Assembly (NCBI RefSeq): GCF_001306915.1
Contig: NZ_LJTC01000005.1
Span: 124,001-188,000, forward strand
DNA length: 64,000 bases
Reading direction: 5' to 3'
Source of the DNA: Pseudoalteromonas lipolytica
GTDB lineage: Bacteria > Pseudomonadota > Gammaproteobacteria > Enterobacterales > Alteromonadaceae
Part shown: piece after piece, positions 2 to 53,207 of the stretch
Layout: each line of letters begins with the position of its first letter
How positions within the stretch are numbered: position 1 is the first letter of the stretch
Program-made: the position numbers and the translations under genes
The notes under the pieces: generated by a model
The model's input: the letters and a program-made list of their open reading frames with translations, nothing else
The model's database searches: none
Told to the model about the DNA's origin: nothing

Positions 2-715
2 CAACCTTCAGCGATTTCTTTAAACACCCCAGTAGCACTAGATGATGATGCCGCAGGTCATGTTGGCCGCGTATTGCGCATGCAAGTCGGTGATAAGGTC
101 TCGATTTTTAATGGTGAAGGAGGTGAATACCTCAGTGAAATTATTGAAGTGAGCAAAAAAAACGTGGTCGTTAAGCCACAGGAATTTGTTGATCATGATG
201 TTGAGTCGCCTTTAAAGATTCACTTAGGCCAAGGTATTTCTCGTGGTGATAAAATGGATTTCACTATTCAAAAATCAGTCGAGCTTGGTATTACAGAAAT
301 CACCCCTATTTTTAGTCAACGTTGTGGCGTAAAACTAAGTGGCGATCGCCTTGCTAAAAAACATCAACAATGGCAAAAAATTGCAATTGCCGCGGCTGAA
401 CAATCTGGCCGCAACGTTGTGCCTGTTGTACACCCGCCTATCGATATAAAAGAGTGGCTAGAACAAGCAAGTGATGCGATTAAACTTACTTTGCACCCGC
501 GTGCTGAGCACAGTATTAAAACGATTCAAATCCCCAGTGAAGGGGTACGCTTTTTAGTCGGTCCTGAAGGTGGATTTACCGATGAAGAAATTAACATTGC
601 TAAACAGCAAGACTTTGTTGATATCCGCTTAGGGCCACGTGTTCTGCGAACAGAAACAGCCGCTCTGACGGTACTGAGCGCATTACAATTGCAATTTGGC
701 GATTTAGCGAATTGA
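2..715 (+). CDS. rsmE: 16S rRNA m3U1498 methyltransferase RsmE (5' end cut by window)
   Basis: The frame is open from base 2, so the gene enters from the left edge. The TTG at 74 is internal, because the 24 codons before it read as normal RsmE sequence (VALDDDAAGHVGRVLRM). About 237 residues are visible against 243 in E. coli, so only a few are missing. RsmE methylates N3 of U1498 in 16S rRNA using S-adenosylmethionine. The SPOUT-family signatures are present near the C-terminus: LVGPEGGF followed by LGPRVLRTETAAL, which form the knotted SAM site. gshB follows 68 bp downstream, the same order as in E. coli (yggJ-gshB). No odd features were seen. Confidence 0.96.
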   Translation, partial: QPSAISLNTPVALDDDAAGHVGRVLRMQVGDKVSIFNGEGGEYLSEIIEVSKKNVVVKPQEFVDHDVESPLKIHLGQGISRGDKMDFTIQKSVELGITEITPIFSQRCGVKLSGDRLAKKHQQWQKIAIAAAEQSGRNVVPVVHPPIDIKEWLEQASDAIKLTLHPRAEHSIKTIQIPSEGVRFLVGPEGGFTDEEINIAKQQDFVDIRLGPRVLRTETAALTVLSALQLQFGDLAN

Positions 716-43485: not shown

Positions 43486-44649
43486 TTAGCTTTCCTTTTG
43501 CGATAGCTGTGCAAATGTATCTTGCTGAGTTAAACGCTTTTCGACCGCTTCAACATGCTCCGTTGTACATTCTTTCCAAACACCGGGCAAGCAATACACA
43601 TGCTTTAAGTAGGTAAAAAACTTATCTCTCAGAATACTATTAGGCTGCCAGCCATTCTGCAGTTTTTCTAAGCACTTAACCAAAGTAGCTTGTTCACTTG
43701 CGTGTAGTACAAGCTCATCAATGTTGTAACAAGCAAGCCCTAAGGTAATTACTTTTTTATCAAGTAATAAAGATTCTAAGCCAACGGTCGAGTTAATGGT
43801 GATCACAGCCTCAGCATTATCAATAAGTTCTCGAGTACAATTTCCGTTGGCAAAAACGGCAACATCATCTTTGTCGTACAAATGTTCATAGTGCTTATGC
43901 CATGAAGGGTGCTCTTTAAAAACAACTTTAAGTTCTGGATCATTTAACTTTTTTACGGCTGAAACAACAGCATCGTAATACTCTTCCATGGACTTAAGCC
44001 AAGGAGAATAACAAGCTATTTGGGTGTCATGTGGAACTTGAAATGGCACAAATAAGTATTTTTTGGGTAACTCAATTGCGTCAAACTTACAGCGCTTCTT
44101 ATGGGCCGCTCTTGGAATTAAATCAGGCGCAGAAAATGGCAACTTCCTTTGCGGATCAAAGTTTAAATAAAATTGACTATCTCGCGGTACAGAAGCCGCA
44201 AAGTTAATACCTTTAGGATCTAAGCTTGTTGTTCCGGGCAATAACCCATTTTCATAGAAATAGGTGGTCACTCCTAATGCCTTAGCAGCCATACAAACAG
44301 TAACATTAGGTAATTTATTACCATTCCAAATAACTAGCGCTTGTGGGGATTCTGACTGCAATAAATCATAATACTTGGCAAACCGGCATCGCTCTACTAA
44401 ATACATCAAAGCAGAGTAACTTTTGATTATCAGTGGGTTCTTCCATAGCTTGTTTCGAGCTTGTTTTCGTAAGAGTTGTTCCGCAATTATTTTATTAAAA
44501 TCAACTTTTTTCGCCTTACTAAAGTATTTTAAAGCAGTAAATCTAGGCAAGCCCATGCAATGCACTTTACTCTTTAAAGGCAGCTTCCTAGTGAGTTTTT
44601 TGTAATAGCGGGCGTGCACATTATTGCGAGAGATAAATAAAAAAGCCAT
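43486..44649 (-). CDS. KpsS-like capsular polysaccharide synthesis family protein
   Basis: 387 residues. It has Capsule_synth-type (KpsS/LipB) motifs: FYENGLLPGTTSLDPKGINF, YLFVPFQVPHDTQI, VFKEHPSWHKHY and ITINSTVGLESLLLDKKVIT. In E. coli KpsS and KpsC add the Kdo linker to the lipid anchor of group 2 capsules; this protein may do a similar step, but no KpsC-like partner is in the window. It is the third gene of a minus-strand cassette after the CDP-glycerol-type transferase and TagD-like genes (51-bp gap). Its stop overlaps the ATG at the start of sseA (TAATG). Confidence 0.84.
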   Translation of the reverse strand: MAFLFISRNNVHARYYKKLTRKLPLKSKVHCMGLPRFTALKYFSKAKKVDFNKIIAEQLLRKQARNKLWKNPLIIKSYSALMYLVERCRFAKYYDLLQSESPQALVIWNGNKLPNVTVCMAAKALGVTTYFYENGLLPGTTSLDPKGINFAASVPRDSQFYLNFDPQRKLPFSAPDLIPRAAHKKRCKFDAIELPKKYLFVPFQVPHDTQIACYSPWLKSMEEYYDAVVSAVKKLNDPELKVVFKEHPSWHKHYEHLYDKDDVAVFANGNCTRELIDNAEAVITINSTVGLESLLLDKKVITLGLACYNIDELVLHASEQATLVKCLEKLQNGWQPNSILRDKFFTYLKHVYCLPGVWKECTTEHVEAVEKRLTQQDTFAQLSQKES

Positions 44650-44700
44650 TTACACATCTTATTTTTGATTGAACGTTAGCGCATATAGCAATTTTATTAA

Positions 44701-45108
44701 TTATAAATGACAGTTGGAAGGTTGCCTTACAACTTCGATTATTTCTGTTGTAGAGATAGAGGGAGTTCGCTCTAGATAAGTTACATCACAAATTTGGTTA
44801 AATTGATCAAATTGACCAGCCCAATCATCCCCCATAACTAGCAAGTGAGCTTGATGATCTTTGATATACTCACCTTTTAATTCTAGAGAATGCTCTACAA
44901 ATACCTCATCGACACACTTCAATGAACTAATAATTTTCAGCCTATCAGCTTCACTATATACGGGCTTTCGACCTTTCTTAGAGAAGTTTAGTTCATCAGA
45001 AGATACACCAACAATCAAATAATCTCCTAACGCTTTAGCTCGTTCTAATATATTGATGTGTCCCACATGAAAAATATCGAACGTGCCAAATGTAATTACC
45101 CGCTTCAT
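44701..45108 (-). CDS. TagD-like glycerol-3-phosphate cytidylyltransferase family protein
   Basis: 135 residues, nucleotidyltransferase fold. The signature GTFDIFHVGHINILERAKAL holds the HxGH motif; RTPSISTTEII is the C-terminal loop of the RTxxISTT type seen in TagD and GCT. It probably makes CDP-glycerol (or a related CDP-polyol) from CTP, supplying the transferase encoded upstream. The first base of its ATG overlaps the upstream stop (4-bp ATGA overlap), so the two genes are coupled. Other substrates, such as ribitol or phosphocholine-type precursors, cannot be excluded. Confidence 0.88.
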   Translation of the reverse strand: MKRVITFGTFDIFHVGHINILERAKALGDYLIVGVSSDELNFSKKGRKPVYSEADRLKIISSLKCVDEVFVEHSLELKGEYIKDHQAHLLVMGDDWAGQFDQFNQICDVTYLERTPSISTTEIIEVVRQPSNCHL

Positions 45109-46175
45109 TGATGCTCCTCTAAATAAGATACAATTCTCTTAGCAGAGTGACCATCGGTAATACCTGCCAGCTTATAAACAATTTCTTTTCTTTTTTCTTT
45201 AAATTCAGCTGATTCATTAAAACTTGAACTTAATAAATACTTTAAATCTTTATAACTTCCTGCACGAGCACATAACTCATTAAAGTACTTGATATCTTCA
45301 TCAAGCCGAGCTTTTAGCCTATAAGAAAAAATACCTCTGTAAGACCAGCGCAGCTTATAGAAATCACACCATATTACAGGCTTTTCTAATGCTGCAAACT
45401 CAAATATGGCTGACGATGCATCAGAAATCATTATATCAGCAAGTTCTAAAAAAGGAGTAAGGTCAAAATCGTACTCATTCGCAAGGTAAACATTCTTAGC
45501 GTTGGCCCACTTATCGAGTTTTAGACGTTGTTTTTTATATTTTTTCTTAAACAAACTAAAGAAATGAGGCTTAACGATAATATTAAATTCATCAAAATGC
45601 TCAGGGAAATCATCGCTAAAACATTCTAAAGAACTTGGATAAAAAGTAGGCGCATACAGCAAGGTTTTCTTTGTTGGATCTAGGCCTAGGTTTTTGAGGT
45701 TAATAGTACCAAGAGTCTGATTAATAATAGGGTCTAATTTTGCGTAGCCACTATCAATAAAGTTACCTTCGGGATAGAGCATTTTTAAACGTTGTAGTCG
45801 GTGTTCACCTTCAACAAACCGCACTGTCATCTTGTTGTTTGATACGTCGTAATAGCATTGCTTTGGGCCGATTCCATGCTGCATCAGTACAGTCTTTTTA
45901 TTTAAATTCTCAGCACCTACGAACGTATTTCCAAATACAACCCAATCTGCATCTGAGTTCTGATAAAAGTCAAAGGTTTCACTCGCACTCGTTAACCATT
46001 TTGCAACTATTGCGTTTTTATCTATAAAGTCACAACATACAGCACGACTACACTCATCTTGTTCTTTATAGAAAACCATCGAAACTTTGTGGCCTTTTTC
46101 TTTTAACTCCTTTAAAACAGGCAGGTATTGTGGAATATAATATAGATGTTGAACATCAAAATATAACTGCATCAT
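45105..46175 (-). CDS. CDP-glycerol glycerophosphotransferase family protein
   Basis: 356 residues. It resembles the catalytic part of TagF/TagB-type enzymes: TVLMQHGIGPKQCYYDV (first conserved His), TLLYAPTFYPSSLEC, NIIVKPHFFS, and SDASSAIFEFAALEKPVI (the C-terminal signature). These enzymes transfer glycerol-phosphate from CDP-glycerol to a polymer. It is coupled to the TagD-like gene, so the pair makes and uses the donor. In Gram-negatives such pairs occur in some capsule or O-antigen loci. The segment looks richer in A and T than its neighbours by eye. Confidence 0.88.
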   Translation of the reverse strand: MMQLYFDVQHLYYIPQYLPVLKELKEKGHKVSMVFYKEQDECSRAVCCDFIDKNAIVAKWLTSASETFDFYQNSDADWVVFGNTFVGAENLNKKTVLMQHGIGPKQCYYDVSNNKMTVRFVEGEHRLQRLKMLYPEGNFIDSGYAKLDPIINQTLGTINLKNLGLDPTKKTLLYAPTFYPSSLECFSDDFPEHFDEFNIIVKPHFFSLFKKKYKKQRLKLDKWANAKNVYLANEYDFDLTPFLELADIMISDASSAIFEFAALEKPVIWCDFYKLRWSYRGIFSYRLKARLDEDIKYFNELCARAGSYKDLKYLLSSSFNESAEFKEKRKEIVYKLAGITDGHSAKRIVSYLEEHQ

Positions 46176-46256: not shown

Positions 46257-46676
46257 CTAAATATCAATTATCTCAGGGCGAAGGGGTGCTAAGCGACTAA
46301 GAATTTTATTTTGTACTGTTTGTGGAATCTGTTGTTCGTCCATAGCATTAATCAAAAGCTCTACCACACGGTTAAAGTCTTTTTTTGAGATATTCATTCC
46401 AGTGTGTATATCAACCATGTTATCGCCTTTGTATTCACAAGGACCGTCGGTGACACTACACAAATGAGTGATAAAGCCTTGGCGAAAATGCGCAACATTG
46501 CTTTGTTTAAAATAAGCTAAAATCTGTTCGTCATGGCCTATTTGATTGATAAAACTTTCAACCAATTTTTCAACCCCTTGTTTACCATTAAGTTGCTGGT
46601 ACAAGGTGCCATTATTGCTACTTACACAACCCACAAGCATAACGGTAAATACAAATTTAAAAAGTGTTTTTATCAT
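46257..46676 (-). CDS. Group 1 truncated haemoglobin lipoprotein
   Basis: 139 residues from the ATG at 46676, whose first base is the last of the preceding TGA stop (TGATG coupling). The signal MIKTLFKFVFTVMLVGCVSS has a lipobox with Cys near 17, so this haemoglobin is predicted to be lipid-anchored outside the cytoplasm, unusual for the family. The globin part has GVEKLVESFINQIGHDEQIL and YFKQSNVAHFRQGFITHL; the proximal haem His is in DIHTGMNIS, in the order typical of group 1. It is the last gene of a four-gene coupled operon with DUF3034, GGDEF/EAL and cupredoxin-like proteins. Confidence 0.9.
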   Translation of the reverse strand: MIKTLFKFVFTVMLVGCVSSNNGTLYQQLNGKQGVEKLVESFINQIGHDEQILAYFKQSNVAHFRQGFITHLCSVTDGPCEYKGDNMVDIHTGMNISKKDFNRVVELLINAMDEQQIPQTVQNKILSRLAPLRPEIIDI

Positions 46677-47509
46677 CACCAATACCCTGTTACTGATAAG
46701 TACCAACCAGTTTGGTCTTCAGCACCAGCAATACTTCCTAAGTCTAACCAAGCAGCGGTGATGCTAACATACTTATTAGGAAACCAAGCCACAAATACAT
46801 CCTGCCAATCTTGCTCTCCTAAACCAAGATTATTGGACTTTACCCGATACTCAACGCCCAAAGCTATTTCATGGGTTAAAAACACCGCTGTAGATGCTTC
46901 AAACAACAATTTTTTATCACTATCAGGACCGCCAAAACCTAACAAACCTAGCTGATTAGCATCGCTATAACGAAAGGTGGTGTTCCAAAACCAATTATAC
47001 CCAGCAAGCGCCCCTAAATGTAATTTACTAGCAGCAAGGTAAATATCGGTACCGCTGGTATCTTTTGCACCTAATAAACTAGCAATACTGCCATCATCTA
47101 AAGACTTATGCTGCATACCTAAACTTAATTGCGGCCATTTACTGTAAACAATGTCACCATATAAGCGTACTTTTGCCCCGGTAATTGATTGCTCAATATC
47201 GGTATTTAATGCGGGAACTTCAAAACGTTGTTCCGCATAACTAAATTCAACGCGATCATAAACATTTAGCTGCGCACCACAAACATCTAAGCGGTAATCA
47301 CTTACATTTGTACGACTGCAAAAGCCATTCAAAGCGATTTCATCATCACTTGCATAGCCTGCGAGCTGAGCCCATGGAACAATCCCACCACCCGCACTGC
47401 CTTCAACCTGAGAGACTCCGGGCGTTGCTAATAATTTACCTGAAGCTGCAAACCCTGAACTTGTAAAAACAATGAAAGTTAGTCCAAATAGCCAATTAAG
47501 ATGCTTCAT
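46676..47509 (-). CDS. DUF3034 family (putative outer membrane) protein
   Basis: 277 residues with a Sec signal (cut near FAA, residue 22). The mature part starts GKLLATPGVSQVEGSAGGGI, followed by VPWAQLAGYASDD, a pattern I recognise as DUF3034. Alternating hydrophobic strands and a terminal aromatic residue (YLSVTGYW) suggest an outer-membrane beta-barrel. Function is unknown. An AGAGGT site precedes the ATG, which lies 14 bp inside the GGDEF/EAL gene. It is coupled to the haemoglobin gene at its 3' end. Confidence 0.86.
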   Translation of the reverse strand: MKHLNWLFGLTFIVFTSSGFAASGKLLATPGVSQVEGSAGGGIVPWAQLAGYASDDEIALNGFCSRTNVSDYRLDVCGAQLNVYDRVEFSYAEQRFEVPALNTDIEQSITGAKVRLYGDIVYSKWPQLSLGMQHKSLDDGSIASLLGAKDTSGTDIYLAASKLHLGALAGYNWFWNTTFRYSDANQLGLLGFGGPDSDKKLLFEASTAVFLTHEIALGVEYRVKSNNLGLGEQDWQDVFVAWFPNKYVSITAAWLDLGSIAGAEDQTGWYLSVTGYW

Positions 47510-49811
47510 TATAGACCTCTAGCCATTGTAAAAACTGCTCTGATTTTAGTGGCCTGCTCAAGTAATACCCTTGCGCATAATCGCACTTTATTAGTTTCAA
47601 AAAGTCTAAAGAAGCTTTATTTTCAACACCTTCCGCAACGACAGAGAAACCTAGCTGATGACCTAAGTTTACTGTTGACTCAACAATATACTGATCTTGT
47701 TTAGATTGCTCCAATTGAAGAATAAAGCATTTATCTAACTTAAGTTCATCGATAGGTAGTAATTTCAAGCGACCCAATGAAGTTTGCCCAACACCATAAT
47801 CATCTAGCGATATTTTTACCCCAAGTGATTTTAGGTTTTCTAATGCTTTAATACCTTGTTCTTCATTTTCTATCATGTCGCGTTCTGTCAGCTCTATTGT
47901 AATAAGCTGTCCATTAACATCATTCTCTTTTAATTGCTTTGCCAAATGAGAGAAAAAGCTTGGGAAGGCAATATCTTGAGCCGAAACATTGATAGCGGCT
48001 TGCATAATAATGCCTTGTTCTTGCCACCTTGCGACTTGAGTGACAACTGTTTTAACTACCCAAGCAGTCAAATCAACAATAACACCTGACTGCTCCGCTA
48101 AATCAATGAATAGCTCCGGTGATACCCACTGCCCATCCTTTCTTTGCCAACGGATCAGCGCTTCCACTTTATCGATCTTAGAGGTGTTTAAATTTAGCTT
48201 TGGTTGATAAGTCATAAACAATTGGCCATCGTCTGCTTGTAATGCATGTTTTAATTCATCAATAATTGCCAACCGTTCCAGATACTCTTCATCTTCGCCG
48301 TTTTGATAATAATGAACATTCTTCTTTTTTGACGAAGCTGTATCAATTGCGATTAAAACTCGGCGCATTAGATCATCGGGCTTAACTCCCTCAAAGGTAC
48401 AATGAACTACACCAGCGCTAAATCGCAAGGTAATATTCAAGCCTTGAATAGTGTAACCGACTTGTAGCTGAGCCATTAAATCCATGACTCCACTTTTTAA
48501 TTGCTCTGCTTTTCCACTTGGAAATAAGGTTAAAAACTCATCTCCACCTATGCGTGCATTGACTCCACCAAGCGGCTCAGAATACTCACTAATACGTTCA
48601 GCAACTTCTCTTAAACAATCATCTCCAATACGAGGGCCAAGTTTGTCATTGATATGCCGCAAACCTCTTATATCAATAGCAACTAAAGTATATTCAGTGC
48701 CTTGCCCTAATAGCGACTCCATAATTTCCAACATGGCACTGCGTGTTAAAAACCCTGTTAACGTATCATGACTTGCTTGAAAGTTGATTTGTCGTTCACG
48801 TTCTTTAATGTCATTACCCATATTATTGAATGCATCAACTAACGTCGTAATTTCAGTACTTTGCTTTTTTCCTATAAATTCAGCTTTGTAGTTACCCCGC
48901 GCGAATTGCTGAGCAAGTAAAGTAAGTTTAGAAAGCGGTGTGGTAAGGTTTTTAGCCAAAATCCCACTAGCTAAAACACCAATCACAACTGTGATAGCTG
49001 CTAATGAAATAATAGTAAAAAAGAGCTGCTCAAATTCAAGATAACTTCGAGTTAAATCGGCACTTAGTAGCACTGATACTTTATGCCCAGAAACCGAAGG
49101 TAGCTCAACAAGGCGATTACGATAAACTGGCTTTTCCCCAAAAATTCGCTGTGTAGATTTATTTTCAAAATGCCTAAGTACTGCATTATCTTCTGGCTTA
49201 TCAACAAGAGAGGTTTCAACGACATCATCATCCTCTCCGATAAAACTTACATCCATAGTTGTAAGTTTTTTTAACTCTTCGGCAACTAGATCTGTGATTT
49301 CAAAACCAACCAAACTATATGCAACTGTTCTCGGTGCGCGAACTGGCAATATAATAACTTGATAAAGAGTCTGCTCGATAACAATGAAATTTGACTGCTC
49401 AGGGTTATCTAATAACTGCTTCATTAATGCCGTAAACTCATTTGGCATGTGAGCGAAATCCGTATTAGCAGAAACGAGCTCCCCAGATAAGTTTATGAGC
49501 ATCATTAAATCAGCATTAATCCGCCTACTATGATTATTTAAGACACTGCTGATAGTATCGGCGTCTTGAGTTGCGACAGCTTGTTTAAAACCGAAATCTG
49601 CTGTTAACACTTTTGCAGCAGTTAGAAGAAGGCTCTCTTTCGCACTTAAATACTGGTTAAAAACATTCTCAGCAACATTAATATCTTCTAGAAGCTTTTG
49701 GTCATTAAAACGATTCGCAGACCACCAAGAACTAACTAGGCTGACTAAGCTTGTTAACAGAACAAGACCAACACATAAGGCAATAACTCGCCCTCTTAAA
49801 CTATTAATCAT
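47496..49811 (-). CDS. GGDEF/EAL domain membrane protein
   Basis: 771 residues from the ATG at 49811, chosen for its AGGGT site and 8-bp overlap with the upstream stop. Two TM helices (about 8-30 and 255-280) flank a periplasmic sensor region of about 225 residues. HAMP follows (about 285-340), then GGDEF (about 355-510; RIGGDEF, 420-426, intact) and EAL (about 525-765). EAL is at 550-552; NVSAQD, ELTERD, DDYGVG, KLDKCF, AEGVEN and QGYYLSRP are all present. Both catalytic sites look complete, so it can probably make and break c-di-GMP. Confidence 0.95.
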   Translation of the reverse strand: MINSLRGRVIALCVGLVLLTSLVSLVSSWWSANRFNDQKLLEDINVAENVFNQYLSAKESLLLTAAKVLTADFGFKQAVATQDADTISSVLNNHSRRINADLMMLINLSGELVSANTDFAHMPNEFTALMKQLLDNPEQSNFIVIEQTLYQVIILPVRAPRTVAYSLVGFEITDLVAEELKKLTTMDVSFIGEDDDVVETSLVDKPEDNAVLRHFENKSTQRIFGEKPVYRNRLVELPSVSGHKVSVLLSADLTRSYLEFEQLFFTIISLAAITVVIGVLASGILAKNLTTPLSKLTLLAQQFARGNYKAEFIGKKQSTEITTLVDAFNNMGNDIKERERQINFQASHDTLTGFLTRSAMLEIMESLLGQGTEYTLVAIDIRGLRHINDKLGPRIGDDCLREVAERISEYSEPLGGVNARIGGDEFLTLFPSGKAEQLKSGVMDLMAQLQVGYTIQGLNITLRFSAGVVHCTFEGVKPDDLMRRVLIAIDTASSKKKNVHYYQNGEDEEYLERLAIIDELKHALQADDGQLFMTYQPKLNLNTSKIDKVEALIRWQRKDGQWVSPELFIDLAEQSGVIVDLTAWVVKTVVTQVARWQEQGIIMQAAINVSAQDIAFPSFFSHLAKQLKENDVNGQLITIELTERDMIENEEQGIKALENLKSLGVKISLDDYGVGQTSLGRLKLLPIDELKLDKCFILQLEQSKQDQYIVESTVNLGHQLGFSVVAEGVENKASLDFLKLIKCDYAQGYYLSRPLKSEQFLQWLEVYNEAS

Positions 49812-50457
49812 TAGTACCCTTAAACATTTCTCCAAATGTATTTCGTGGTTTCGGCTCTATTGTAGTAATGACAATATCTGCAACCTGCGAAGAATCAGCA
49901 AATGTAATTGTTTTTTTCTGATCGATATCACTCTGTTGGTTTGGTTGCCATACCGTAAAGCTAACAGGAAATGTACTCACATTTAATTGAACTCTTCCAT
50001 CTACGCTCGTTTTTAGCACTTCTGAACTATCTGCAACATAAATGTATCCGACCATTGAATCATGGATATTACAACCGAGAACAACAATCCCAGGTGATTC
50101 AAATTTTTCGGGTTTTTCAGGCCGACCAGAGTAAAGTTTGATATCAAATTGCTTTACAGTCGAGAATGAGTACACATGATGGCGAATATTATCACTATTT
50201 GGGAAGTCAACTAATTGCCCGTTTTGAATAACAAGTACTTTAGGGGTAAAGTGCTTATCAACCTGGTCCATGACGGCAACTGATAAGTTATCTTGGTGAT
50301 TTAACTGCTGATCCTTAAACTCAATAACAGCATCTTTTAATGGCTTTCCAAATTGATCGCGTACAACAAAGGAAAAGTCCGCTGAAAGTACATTCGTTGA
50401 GCTTAATAACAAAGCAACGTAACATACCCGGCTAAAAAAATTCGCAAACATCAACAT
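49804..50457 (-). CDS. Cupredoxin-like periplasmic protein ('methylamine utilization protein' type)
   Basis: 217 residues, with a Sec signal (cleaved near VLSA, residue 26). The body resembles a plastocyanin/cupredoxin fold with likely copper ligands: His in NIRHHVYSFS, Cys in VVLGCNIHDSMVGYIYV, then His and Met in the same motif. This is the group often auto-named 'methylamine utilization protein', a label not supported by any methylamine genes here. It opens the operon with the GGDEF/EAL gene (8-bp overlap). It may sense or carry copper or electrons in the periplasm; that is inference. Confidence 0.86.
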   Translation of the reverse strand: MLMFANFFSRVCYVALLLSSTNVLSADFSFVVRDQFGKPLKDAVIEFKDQQLNHQDNLSVAVMDQVDKHFTPKVLVIQNGQLVDFPNSDNIRHHVYSFSTVKQFDIKLYSGRPEKPEKFESPGIVVLGCNIHDSMVGYIYVADSSEVLKTSVDGRVQLNVSTFPVSFTVWQPNQQSDIDQKKTITFADSSQVADIVITTIEPKPRNTFGEMFKGTND

Positions 50458-50809
50458 AATTAATTAGTTCCGCTCTTAGTTCACAATTCAGTATAGATTA
50501 ATCTATTGTTAAGTTATACCTAATCATTTCATTGATAGAGACCGGTTTTAGGCAAGAAAGTATTGACGAAAAACTTAAAACTTAGTGAATTAGTTACAGT
50601 AATAACTTTGCTTAGTATTACTTTCGTTATCAATTAATCTGTAATGTCAGAAAGGTGGAGACTATTGGGATCATGTTTATCCCGTTTAATTACCTTATAC
50701 ATCATTCAGAAATGAGTACAGAAGGTAATAAAAAGCCAAGCAATGTTATTTGTGACAGCTTGGCTTTAAAAATAGCATTTTAGCTATGAATAAAATTAGT
50801 AAATGCCTA
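50458..50809. other. Intergenic stretch between purC and the cupredoxin-like gene
   Basis: 352 bases. The part near 50458-50560 should hold the promoter of the four-gene minus-strand operon. The part at 50732-50767 is the purC terminator. Between them I see no gene I can support: a 23-codon ATG frame at 50644 has no ribosome site. Confidence 0.5.
50732..50767 (-). terminator. Rho-independent terminator after purC
   Basis: On the minus strand AAAGCCAAGC and GCTTGGCTTT form a 10-bp stem with a 16-base loop, followed by a T-run. It lies 42 bp past the purC stop. Confidence 0.88.
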
Positions 50810-51916
50810 TTAATCGTGCTTAATTAAGCCGTAATCACTATCTAAAATTGCGATTACTTCACTTCTTGGGTCACTAGGAATAGTGATTTCTTGACCAATA
50901 ATTTTACTCGCAATGCCAACGTAGGTATCAGACACTTCAAGCATCACTGATTCTGGCAAGGTATAGTCTTTAGCAAGCTGCTCACGCTCGCCCATACGGT
51001 CTTTATTTAATAACACGTCGCTGTCTGGCACGTTATTAATTAATAACTGGCGGAAACCCTCTTTTGAGTTTTCAATGATTTTACCGTCACGGTAAGCTGG
51101 ACCATCCCAGATACGTGATGAGTCTGGTGTGCCTACTTCATCGATATAGATAAGCTTATCTGAACCATCAATGTCTTCAACATAACCAAATTCAAATTTA
51201 GTATCGACAAAGATTTGATCAAGCTGTGCAAGTTCATCACTGATCAGCTTAAAGCCTTCAACAAGTAATTGCTCATATTTAGCGACATCATCTTCAGATT
51301 TGAAGTTAAAAACAGCTAAGTTATTCGTAATATTTTCACGGGTAATATTTACATCATCTACTTCGGGGATCTCAGCAACACCGGTAATAATGCCTTTCGT
51401 TGATGGCGTAATTAACACTTCATCTAACTTTTGGTTCGCAGCTAAGCCTTCTGGTAAATCAATACCACAGAAACTACGTGTACCTTTCGCGTAGTCACGC
51501 CACATACTGCCAGTAATATATTGGCGCGCAATGGCTTCAACTTTTACTGTACTTGCTTTACGCACAATCCATACATATGGATGTGGAATATCAACAATAT
51601 GGTTACCAGCAAGACCTGCTTTATCAAATAACTTAAACCAATGAGACGCAACAGAGTTTAGCGCGATGCCTTTACCAGGCACCCCATTTAAACCGTTTTC
51701 ACCTTGCCAAATACAATCAAACGCAGAAATACGGTCAGAAATAACCATAATAGCTAGCTCAGTTCCTTTTGGAACTTGATAACCTTTTTCATTAATTAAA
51801 CGAGCACTGTCTTCATCAGTTAACCAATAAACTGAACGCACTTTACCACTGTGTACCGCACCTTTGGTACGGATCGGTAAGTCATCGTTTACGTCTAAAA
51901 CTTTATAGCTAGTCAT
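50810..51916 (-). CDS. purC: Phosphoribosylaminoimidazolesuccinocarboxamide synthase (long form)
   Basis: Purine synthesis: joins aspartate to CAIR with ATP to make SAICAR. 368 residues, the long form seen in Vibrio and Alteromonadales rather than the 237-residue E. coli form. I used the ATG at 51916 (GGAGA site) instead of 51946, which has none. Signatures are [15 protein letters not shown] at the N-terminus, then [39 protein letters not shown] and [20 protein letters not shown]. It stands alone with its own terminator. No PurR-type operator was recognised upstream. Confidence 0.97.
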
Positions 51917-52078
51917 GCTATCTCCGATAGTATTTGGCATGCTCATGTGAGCACATGTATGGGATTGGGGTTATGGCCGCCTATAATAATCTAGACGCCT
52001 TGAAAGCTCAATCATTGCACTATCATCAGCAGCCTACGGACGTGATAAAAAACATAAAAATTTAAACTTCCAGTAATT

Positions 52079-52133: not shown

Positions 52134-53207
52134 TTGGATTACTTAGCAGCTACCGCAAACAAAAAATACTTAATGTTTATTTCGCAGAACTATTCGTACG
52201 CGATCTTACGCCCATTACAACGGGAGATTTTAGCCCGAGGTGGCGAAGTTCGCTGGTTTTTGTACGGCGATGAAGTAAATCCAAACTTCCTTCACCAAGA
52301 TGAGATTCGATTATTATCAGTAGATGAGCTCAAAGACTGGCGCCCAGATATCGTGTATGTACCAGGGAATGTGGTGCCGGATTTCATCCCTGGAAAAAAA
52401 GTGGCTGTTTTCCATGGTTTCAATTCAGGAAAGCGCATGAATAAAGGTGTTGATAATCACTTTAATATTCGAGGGTGCTTCGACTTATATTGCACTCAAG
52501 GGCCAACAACCACGACTACTTTTTTAGAGCTTGCCCAGCAACATGGATTCTTTAAAGTAAAAGAAACGGGCTGGCCGACGCTCGATCCTTACTTTAGTGA
52601 GATTGAAAACAATCCATACAAAAATCATGATGACAACAGAAAAACCTTATTGATTTGCTCGACTTTCTCAAAGCGCCTTTCTCTTGCACCTAAATTATAC
52701 GAACAAATAAAAGCATACAGTGAACAAGGCAAGTGGCGAATTTTGGTGCAATTTCACCCAAAAATGCCAAGCGAGATTGTTGAACAATACAAGGCTCTAC
52801 AAAACGACAATCTAACCTTTGTCGAGACTGATAACGTATTACCACTATTACAAGCAGCGGATGTTATGCTGTGTGATACCTCGTCTATTTTGCTCATGTT
52901 TATCTTACAAAGAAAACCTGTGGTGACTTTTTGTAATCATGGTGCTGGTGAACATTTAGTTGATATTACAGATGCAGATAAAGTTGCCGAGGCAATTGAC
53001 TATGCATTGAGTAAGCCTGCGGAATTAATGGCAAAAATCGAACACTTCTGCCAGCAACTGCATCCTTACCAAGACGGCTTATCGAGTCAACGTGTACTTG
53101 CTGCTAGCAATGAATTACTATTGAGCAATCCTGCACTTAAGCCGAAACCACGTAATTTTATTCGTAATTTTAAAATGCGCAAAGAGTTAAATTACTGGCG
53201 ATGGTAA
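52134..53207 (+). CDS. CDP-glycerol glycerophosphotransferase family protein (second copy)
   Basis: 357 residues. Start is TTG at 52134, supported by a near-perfect AGGAGG five bases upstream. The family motifs are KVAVFHGFNSGKRMNKG (first His), KTLLICSTFSKRLSLAP, RILVQFHPKMPSE, and CDTSSILLMFILQRKPVVTF as the C-terminal signature. It differs from the copy at 45105-46175 and is not part of a visible capsule locus; it precedes the ABC ATPase gene by 16 bp, so it may share that transcript. Its acceptor is not known. Confidence 0.85.
   Translation: MDYLAATANKKYLMFISQNYSYAILRPLQREILARGGEVRWFLYGDEVNPNFLHQDEIRLLSVDELKDWRPDIVYVPGNVVPDFIPGKKVAVFHGFNSGKRMNKGVDNHFNIRGCFDLYCTQGPTTTTTFLELAQQHGFFKVKETGWPTLDPYFSEIENNPYKNHDDNRKTLLICSTFSKRLSLAPKLYEQIKAYSEQGKWRILVQFHPKMPSEIVEQYKALQNDNLTFVETDNVLPLLQAADVMLCDTSSILLMFILQRKPVVTFCNHGAGEHLVDITDADKVAEAIDYALSKPAELMAKIEHFCQQLHPYQDGLSSQRVLAASNELLLSNPALKPKPRNFIRNFKMRKELNYWRW

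Follow-up and report, generated by a model that had tools for sequence, protein, structure and literature searches.

A cupredoxin encoded beside Cache-domain sensors in Pseudoalteromonas lipolytica and its relatives is a candidate periplasmic signalling partner

Soluble periplasmic proteins that report to a membrane sensor, as we propose below for a cupredoxin, are exemplified by LuxP-LuxQ and TorT-TorS; LuxP and TorT, however, are sugar- or TMAO-binding-type and not copper proteins, and the output of LuxQ and TorS is a histidine kinase. Among truncated haemoglobins, the NO-dioxygenating HbN of group 1 possesses a distal hydrogen-bond network involving Tyr B10 and Gln E11. To our knowledge, the signal has been identified for only a minority of the c-di-GMP enzymes that carry a Cache domain. 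The nearest working analogue of the locus described here is YfiBNR of P. aeruginosa, in which, as reported, an outer-membrane lipoprotein, a periplasmic protein and an inner-membrane HAMP c-di-GMP enzyme are chained across the envelope (PMC2837407, PMC3375315, PMC4655355). The present arrangement is analogous but differs in its components: a cupredoxin takes the periplasmic place and a globin that of the lipoprotein, a barrel is added, EAL is the conserved output and the sensor domain is dCache_3; Pfam scans of the four operon proteins returned no YfiR or YfiB domain. The pentahaem cytochrome-truncated globin fusions of cable bacteria resemble the operon globin in that their truncated globin domain is predicted to be periplasmic, but they are fused to multihaem cytochromes and proposed to act as an oxidase, and the accessible part of that source names neither a c-di-GMP sensor nor a cupredoxin with them (PMC11976967). 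Among the open-access papers listed by our literature search, we found no description of cupredoxin-linked Cache sensors, of DUF3034 function or of lipoprotein globins.

The locus lies in a window of 64,000 nucleotides of P. lipolytica (contig NZ_LJTC01000005.1) and encodes a cupredoxin-like protein, a GGDEF/EAL sensor, a DUF3034 protein and a truncated globin (Table 1). The four overlapping ORFs proposed in a sequence-only reading of the window are borne out, all on the minus strand and with matching coordinates: the cupredoxin and sensor genes overlap by 8 bp (49804-49811), the sensor and DUF3034 genes by 14 bp (47496-47509), and the DUF3034 and globin genes meet in a TGATG with one base in common (46676). 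Comparison of the upstream region of the window with those of loci L035-L038 revealed no recognizable conserved block, and regulator patterns matched few of 154 upstream regions (FNR-like, 1; CueR-like half-site, 4; NsrR-like, 0), which is weak evidence because these patterns were crude. The operon is flanked by a probably unrelated envelope-polymer cluster (43486-46175, minus strand; 52134-53207, plus strand), with genes resembling CDP-glycerol:poly(glycerophosphate) glycerophosphotransferases by Pfam (45105-46175 and 52134-53207) and, in the left flank, a small ORF that looks by eye like a nucleotidyltransferase (44701-45108).

Table 1. Features of the operon, its products and its upstream neighbour, in window coordinates
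Feature	Residues	Window position	Strand	Detail
SAICAR-synthetase gene		50810-51946	-	upstream neighbour of operon
Intergenic stretch 5' of operon		50458..50809	.	ends at SAICAR-synthetase stop codon
Cupredoxin-like gene	217 aa	49804-50457	-	
Signal-like helix, cupredoxin-like protein	2-19			
Cupredoxin domain	about 57-143	50029-50289	-	
Second beta-sandwich flanking cupredoxin domain	about 24-55 + 144-204			
Predicted type-1 copper ligands		50053..50181	-	His93 50179-50181; Cys129 50071-50073; His132 50062-50064; Met135 50053-50055
GGDEF/EAL sensor gene	771 aa	47496-49811	-	from its ATG
dCache_3, periplasmic	42-221	49149-49688	-	Pfam 2.9e-10, 40.6 bits (cut-off 25.7)
Motif D72-F-G-F-K...N93-H-S-R-R97		49521..49598	-	periplasmic; common to most cupredoxin-linked dCache_3 sensors
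HAMP	285-335	48807-48959	-	Pfam 5.6e-7, 30.2 bits (cut-off 25)
GGDEF	346-498	48318-48776	-	Pfam 7.3e-23
EAL	519-754	47550-48257	-	Pfam 4.6e-65
DUF3034 gene	277 aa	46676-47509	-	
Signal-like helix, DUF3034 protein	2-20			
Gly-rich low-confidence segment, DUF3034 protein	19-44			
12 predicted strands, DUF3034 protein	58 to 276	46682-47338	-	model
Globin gene	139 aa	46257-46676	-	from its ATG
Group-1-type truncated globin		46257..46676	-	proximal His91 at 46404-46406
Globin lipobox L14-V-G-C17		46626-46637	-	
Globin Cys73, Cys80		46458-46460, 46437-46439	-	

The cupredoxin-like protein has no Pfam match, and its AlphaFold model falls among cupredoxins. It carries a His-Cys-His-Met set with C-x2-H-x2-M spacing, in which we take His93, Cys129, His132 and Met135 to be the copper ligands by comparison with amicyanin-type loops; from fold and ligands, it is predicted to bind copper at a type-1 site. 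The C..H..M pattern is kept in 110/111 DUF3034-linked and 43/43 other strong homologues, the sole miss among these 154 being an ORF split in L067. Unlike amicyanin, plastocyanin and pseudoazurin, this cupredoxin has an extra beta-sandwich around its domain and is linked to a sensor. Of 7999 candidates that were scored, 4587 proteins under the database name "methylamine utilization protein" match at E <= 1e-10. A role in methylamine metabolism was considered and rejected, as the methylamine dehydrogenase light chain (PF02975) was found in 1/25 genomes and in 0/1 for the own genome; its absence from 24/25 genomes tested further separates this cupredoxin from amicyanin.

What accompanies the cupredoxin most constantly is a signalling protein. 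Searches for the cupredoxin detected it in 80/369 genomes of the class at 1e-5 and in 55/398 genomes of the phylum at 1e-20, and neighbourhoods were taken from 20 class places outside the DUF3034 operon, 54 phylum places and 20 weak hits. A signalling-output protein lies within 1.5 kb of 66/79 strong non-redundant cupredoxins outside the named-genome set, compared with a background rate of 4/100 for comparably sized ORFs from other parts of the loci. Where DUF3034 is absent, the output protein is present in 31/41 cases (10/41 are without), as GGDEF/EAL (18), class III cyclase (6), Ser/Thr kinase (5), histidine kinase (1) or chemoreceptor (1). Pfam confirmed each output type, including the cyclases of L177, L178, L181, L233 and L244, that of L185 being assigned by a home-made cyclase profile; L023, which matched the same profile, is a Ser/Thr kinase by Pfam and was counted as such. 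The control made of weak cupredoxins was not clean, with a sensor within 1.5 kb in 9/24, mostly chemoreceptors two genes off and three within 100 bp; L283 proved to be a true linked pair. Some further architectures were also seen: in L281, L282, L284 and L285 (also L273 and L280), short single-domain cupredoxins have a chemoreceptor about one to two genes away in a recurring order, and in L190, L192, L193 and L194, longer variants (364-382 aa) adjoin Ser/Thr kinases, with FHA- or phosphatase-like ORFs nearby by eye in L192 and L193.

The association extends to whole genomes. A profile of the sensory half (A6) gave 25 matches of at least 150 bits in the 369 class genomes, and for 20 of these a cupredoxin lies no more than 3 kb away; by genome, both partners occur in 20, the sensor only in 2, a strong cupredoxin only in 7 and neither in 340 (Fisher p 3.7e-25, uncorrected for phylogeny). 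The input comprised 56/101 listed cupredoxin places, leaving out 45 weak or single-domain ones, all of them outside the genomes with a sensor scored as unlinked, and 40/41 listed sensor matches, leaving out a second fragment of the G085 gene. Among the weaker sensor matches (80-150 bits), 7/15 lie within 200 bp of cupredoxins of only 44-62 bits, and 5/7 cupredoxin-only genomes (G119, G143, G256, G352 and G367) hold a linked kinase-type sensor below the 150-bit threshold.

Linked sensors are also recognizable as a subtype. The D72-R97 motif of the periplasmic domain is found in 18/20 cupredoxin-linked dCache_3 sensors versus 1/10 unlinked ones of the same genomes, the 20 linked labels having been assigned by hand from coordinates for the 30/32 matches with loci; the only unlinked carrier, L289, belongs to a genome whose cupredoxin has no local sensor. 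Beside cupredoxins without DUF3034, the motif occurs in 12/18 GGDEF/EAL proteins, 6/6 cyclases and 0/5 kinases, three of the five kinase-linked sensors matching dCache_1 and not dCache_3, and the linked histidine kinase L180 carries it. Being common to GGDEF/EAL, cyclase and histidine-kinase sensors, it shows that proteins with different outputs have related sensory domains. On a tree built from 92 cupredoxin rows, by a quick method and with many weakly supported forks, the output type changes at least eight times among five states. The own genome holds a second cupredoxin (G000:C6, L175:5416-8966, minus strand), followed by a 413-aa secreted protein and a HAMP-MCP chemoreceptor in that order; the chemoreceptor has no Cache match, and the gene between it and the cupredoxin encodes a putative barrel. 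The barrel nature of such non-DUF3034 partners is based on weak Pfam porin matches and C-terminal residues. The cupredoxin is constant and output domain and barrel are exchanged, which is what one would expect if the cupredoxin were a messenger in the periplasm with a sensory domain dedicated to reading it.

Our main reading, to which we assign a probability of roughly 0.6, is that the cupredoxin docks on the Cache domain of the sensor and switches the predicted EAL phosphodiesterase, with the barrel and globin as outer-membrane input. Linkage, co-occurrence, sensory subtype, output exchange and the kept copper-ligand pattern were all computed. The cupredoxin would be the periplasmic partner read by the Cache domain of an inner-membrane sensor; its docking would switch the phosphodiesterase, and the state of the envelope would in this way set cytoplasmic c-di-GMP. 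We infer physical docking, and the message may be copper occupancy or redox state. Several findings count against this reading: the kinase-linked sensors without the D72-R97 motif, the chemoreceptor without a Cache match, the 10/41 cupredoxins with no signalling protein close by, the weak-cupredoxin control that was not clean and, as described below, the motif-free unlinked sensors of G348 and G724 and the genomes G107 and G583, in which no such sensor was found. Another possibility, which we consider rather improbable, is that copper itself is sensed, the cupredoxin acting as a copper reporter, the barrel admitting copper and the sensor lowering c-di-GMP at high or low copper.

The output of the GGDEF/EAL class is likely c-di-GMP breakdown. 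Eight EAL residues, presumably metal ligands or catalytic residues (E550, N608, E640, D670, D671, K691, E727 and Q747), are invariant in 117/117 sensors, and the window copy has an intact GG[DE]EF, as have only 33/116 relatives (24/93 DUF3034-linked, 9/23 other sensors), so that the conserved activity of this class is likely an EAL phosphodiesterase rather than both activities. The initial view of two intact catalytic sites is right for the window copy, as regards its GGDEF motif and its EAL ligands, but does not extend to the relatives, where the EAL ligands are kept in 116/116. No I-site was seen in the window GGDEF domain. An envelope sensor acting on c-di-GMP, as first suggested from the sequence, remains the best reading of the operon, with the qualification that, over the whole family, the sensors are not confined to c-di-GMP as their output.

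The operon itself is a cupredoxin and Cache sensor module joined to a DUF3034 and globin module. The cupredoxin, sensor, DUF3034 and globin genes follow one another in this order in 90 of the 112 loci with cupredoxin and DUF3034, counted over the named-genome set and the other loci; for the named set, the best 80 of at least 560 matched relatives were kept. The titles among these best 80 include Pseudoalteromonas, Colwellia, Methylophaga, Marinomonas, Halomonas, Xanthomonas, Pseudomonas, Shewanella and one Sphingopyxis metagenome bin; the synteny, first suggested for marine gammaproteobacteria, proved on checking to be real and wider than that group. Among the same 112 loci, the globin/DUF3034 pair is divergent from the cupredoxin/sensor pair in six and the sensor is absent from five (Marinomonas type), the remainder being other orders, cut contigs or ORF-calling artefacts. 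In the survey of cupredoxin neighbourhoods, greedy gene picking masked a few overlapping genes (L020, L098 and L102). About 4 kb of other genes separate the two pairs in L082 and L087, and the split falls elsewhere in L024, L029, L228 and L261. Outside the named set, a globin is near 37/38 strong cupredoxins with DUF3034 and 0/41 without. The linkage claimed for the four genes is real, and the set is made of two modules that are found apart and rearranged as well. Locus L063:4034-7101 carries DUF3034 and globin genes without a cupredoxin, near two bacterioferritin-like ORFs and a BFD-like ORF, as judged by eye from their first residues. That block horizontal transfer alone kept together four functionally uncoupled proteins would agree with the operon-like overlaps and with a patchy distribution (DUF3034 in 18/369 genomes of the class; 0/14 control genomes had it), but we regard it as very improbable, given that membership stays while order varies, from the six divergent loci to the other orders, that partners occur in trans, and that outputs and barrels are swapped around a constant cupredoxin.

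As to the outer-membrane side, the DUF3034 protein (PF11231; Pfam 2.2e-107, 358.8 bits against a cut-off of 25) models as an outer-membrane barrel of 12 predicted strands, amphipathic and closed, behind a signal-like helix. It shares about 10% identity with FapF and COG4313/KdgM-type outer-membrane channels, from which function is not transferable.

The globin (Bac_globin, Pfam 1e-14; best match to solved group 1 globins, 3.3e-12) is by domain and proximal His a group 1 truncated haemoglobin, predicted to bind haem. A strict lipobox was detected in 85/111 relatives, the misses comprising several artefacts of the rule and other proteins with plain signal peptides. By the Lol rule, the residue after the lipobox Cys decides the membrane, any residue other than Asp meaning the outer one; with Asp in 0/85 of those detected, the globins would be destined for the outer membrane. 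The proximal His and Cys73/Cys80 are invariant in 110/110 DUF3034-linked globins. At the distal positions that we number B10, E7 and E11 by presumed equivalence, the globin is aliphatic or Phe; the B10 column is Ile, Leu or Val in 108/110 and Tyr in 0/110, and the window copy has Ile43 and Phe68 instead of a Tyr B10/Gln E11 pair. We infer a Cys73-Cys80 disulfide and a nonpolar haem pocket. The operon globin thus resembles HbN in matching solved group 1 globins and keeping the proximal His, and departs from it in its lipobox or signal peptide, Cys pair, DUF3034 linkage and lack of Tyr B10. A periplasmic haemoglobin was thought unusual, a view that did not hold, as export signals are not rare: among 23 other truncated-globin ORFs, 10 have the same Cys pair and most of these a signal-like start. 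In the cytoplasmic globin of the own genome, Tyr occupies the B10-equivalent position and the Cys pair is missing. In G000:C68 (L205:6965-8199, minus strand), a cytoplasmic truncated globin of 119 aa, whose B10-equivalent residue is Tyr, overlaps a 294-aa GGDEF gene by 10 bp, a second and different globin/c-di-GMP gene pair of this genome.

These components also lend themselves to the strongest rival, that the cupredoxin works with the barrel and the globin as a redox or detoxification unit of the outer membrane. The unit might, for example, serve NO or oxygen chemistry, the cupredoxin carrying electrons; the sensor would be no more than co-expressed and would adapt lifestyle at times when such a unit is called for. 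Seven genomes lack a sensor near the cupredoxin (G478, G348, G509, G724, G494, G107 and G583); all except G107 and G583 have a related GGDEF/EAL sensor elsewhere (156-275 bits), those of G348 and G724 (2/5) without the D72-R97 motif. G583, which is 73% complete and has its cupredoxin close to the end of a contig, yielded no such sensor; in G107 (100% complete, L029), cupredoxin, DUF3034 and globin are present with no such sensor anywhere in the genome, and these three can therefore exist without it. Together with the five Marinomonas-type loci, the G107/G596-type loci, which have no adjacent cognate sensor, speak for a redox unit, as does the oxygen-reducing role proposed for periplasmic truncated globins of cable bacteria (PMC11976967). 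We nevertheless judge it unlikely, because the constant companion of the cupredoxin is the sensor and not the globin, and because cupredoxin and sensory domain tend to be present in the same genomes. The aliphatic or Phe distal positions of the globin, unlike the Tyr/Gln pocket of NO-dioxygenating group 1 globins, also argue against it.

Under the docking reading, the lipoprotein globin is predicted to lie on the periplasmic face of the outer membrane, next to the DUF3034 barrel. There it would exchange electrons with the cupredoxin or capture for it a small ligand, NO or O2, and the cupredoxin would then relay the change through the periplasm as far as the sensor. More broadly, and only tentatively, with the odds somewhat against it, a copper-redox protein may be the periplasmic first messenger in a new class of transmembrane signalling, its redox or ligand state being set by a haem globin and a barrel of the outer membrane and read by a dedicated Cache domain, and one and the same cassette acting, by lineage, on five outputs: c-di-GMP, cyclic nucleotides, Ser/Thr phosphorylation, His phosphorylation and chemotaxis. 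A redox-coupled protein in the role of a diffusible periplasmic messenger would surprise specialists. If the cupredoxin is indeed the ligand, an entire sensor family with five types of output would become accessible to study, thousands of proteins misleadingly named "methylamine utilization protein" would be accounted for, and both DUF3034 and the exported truncated globins would have a role assigned to them.
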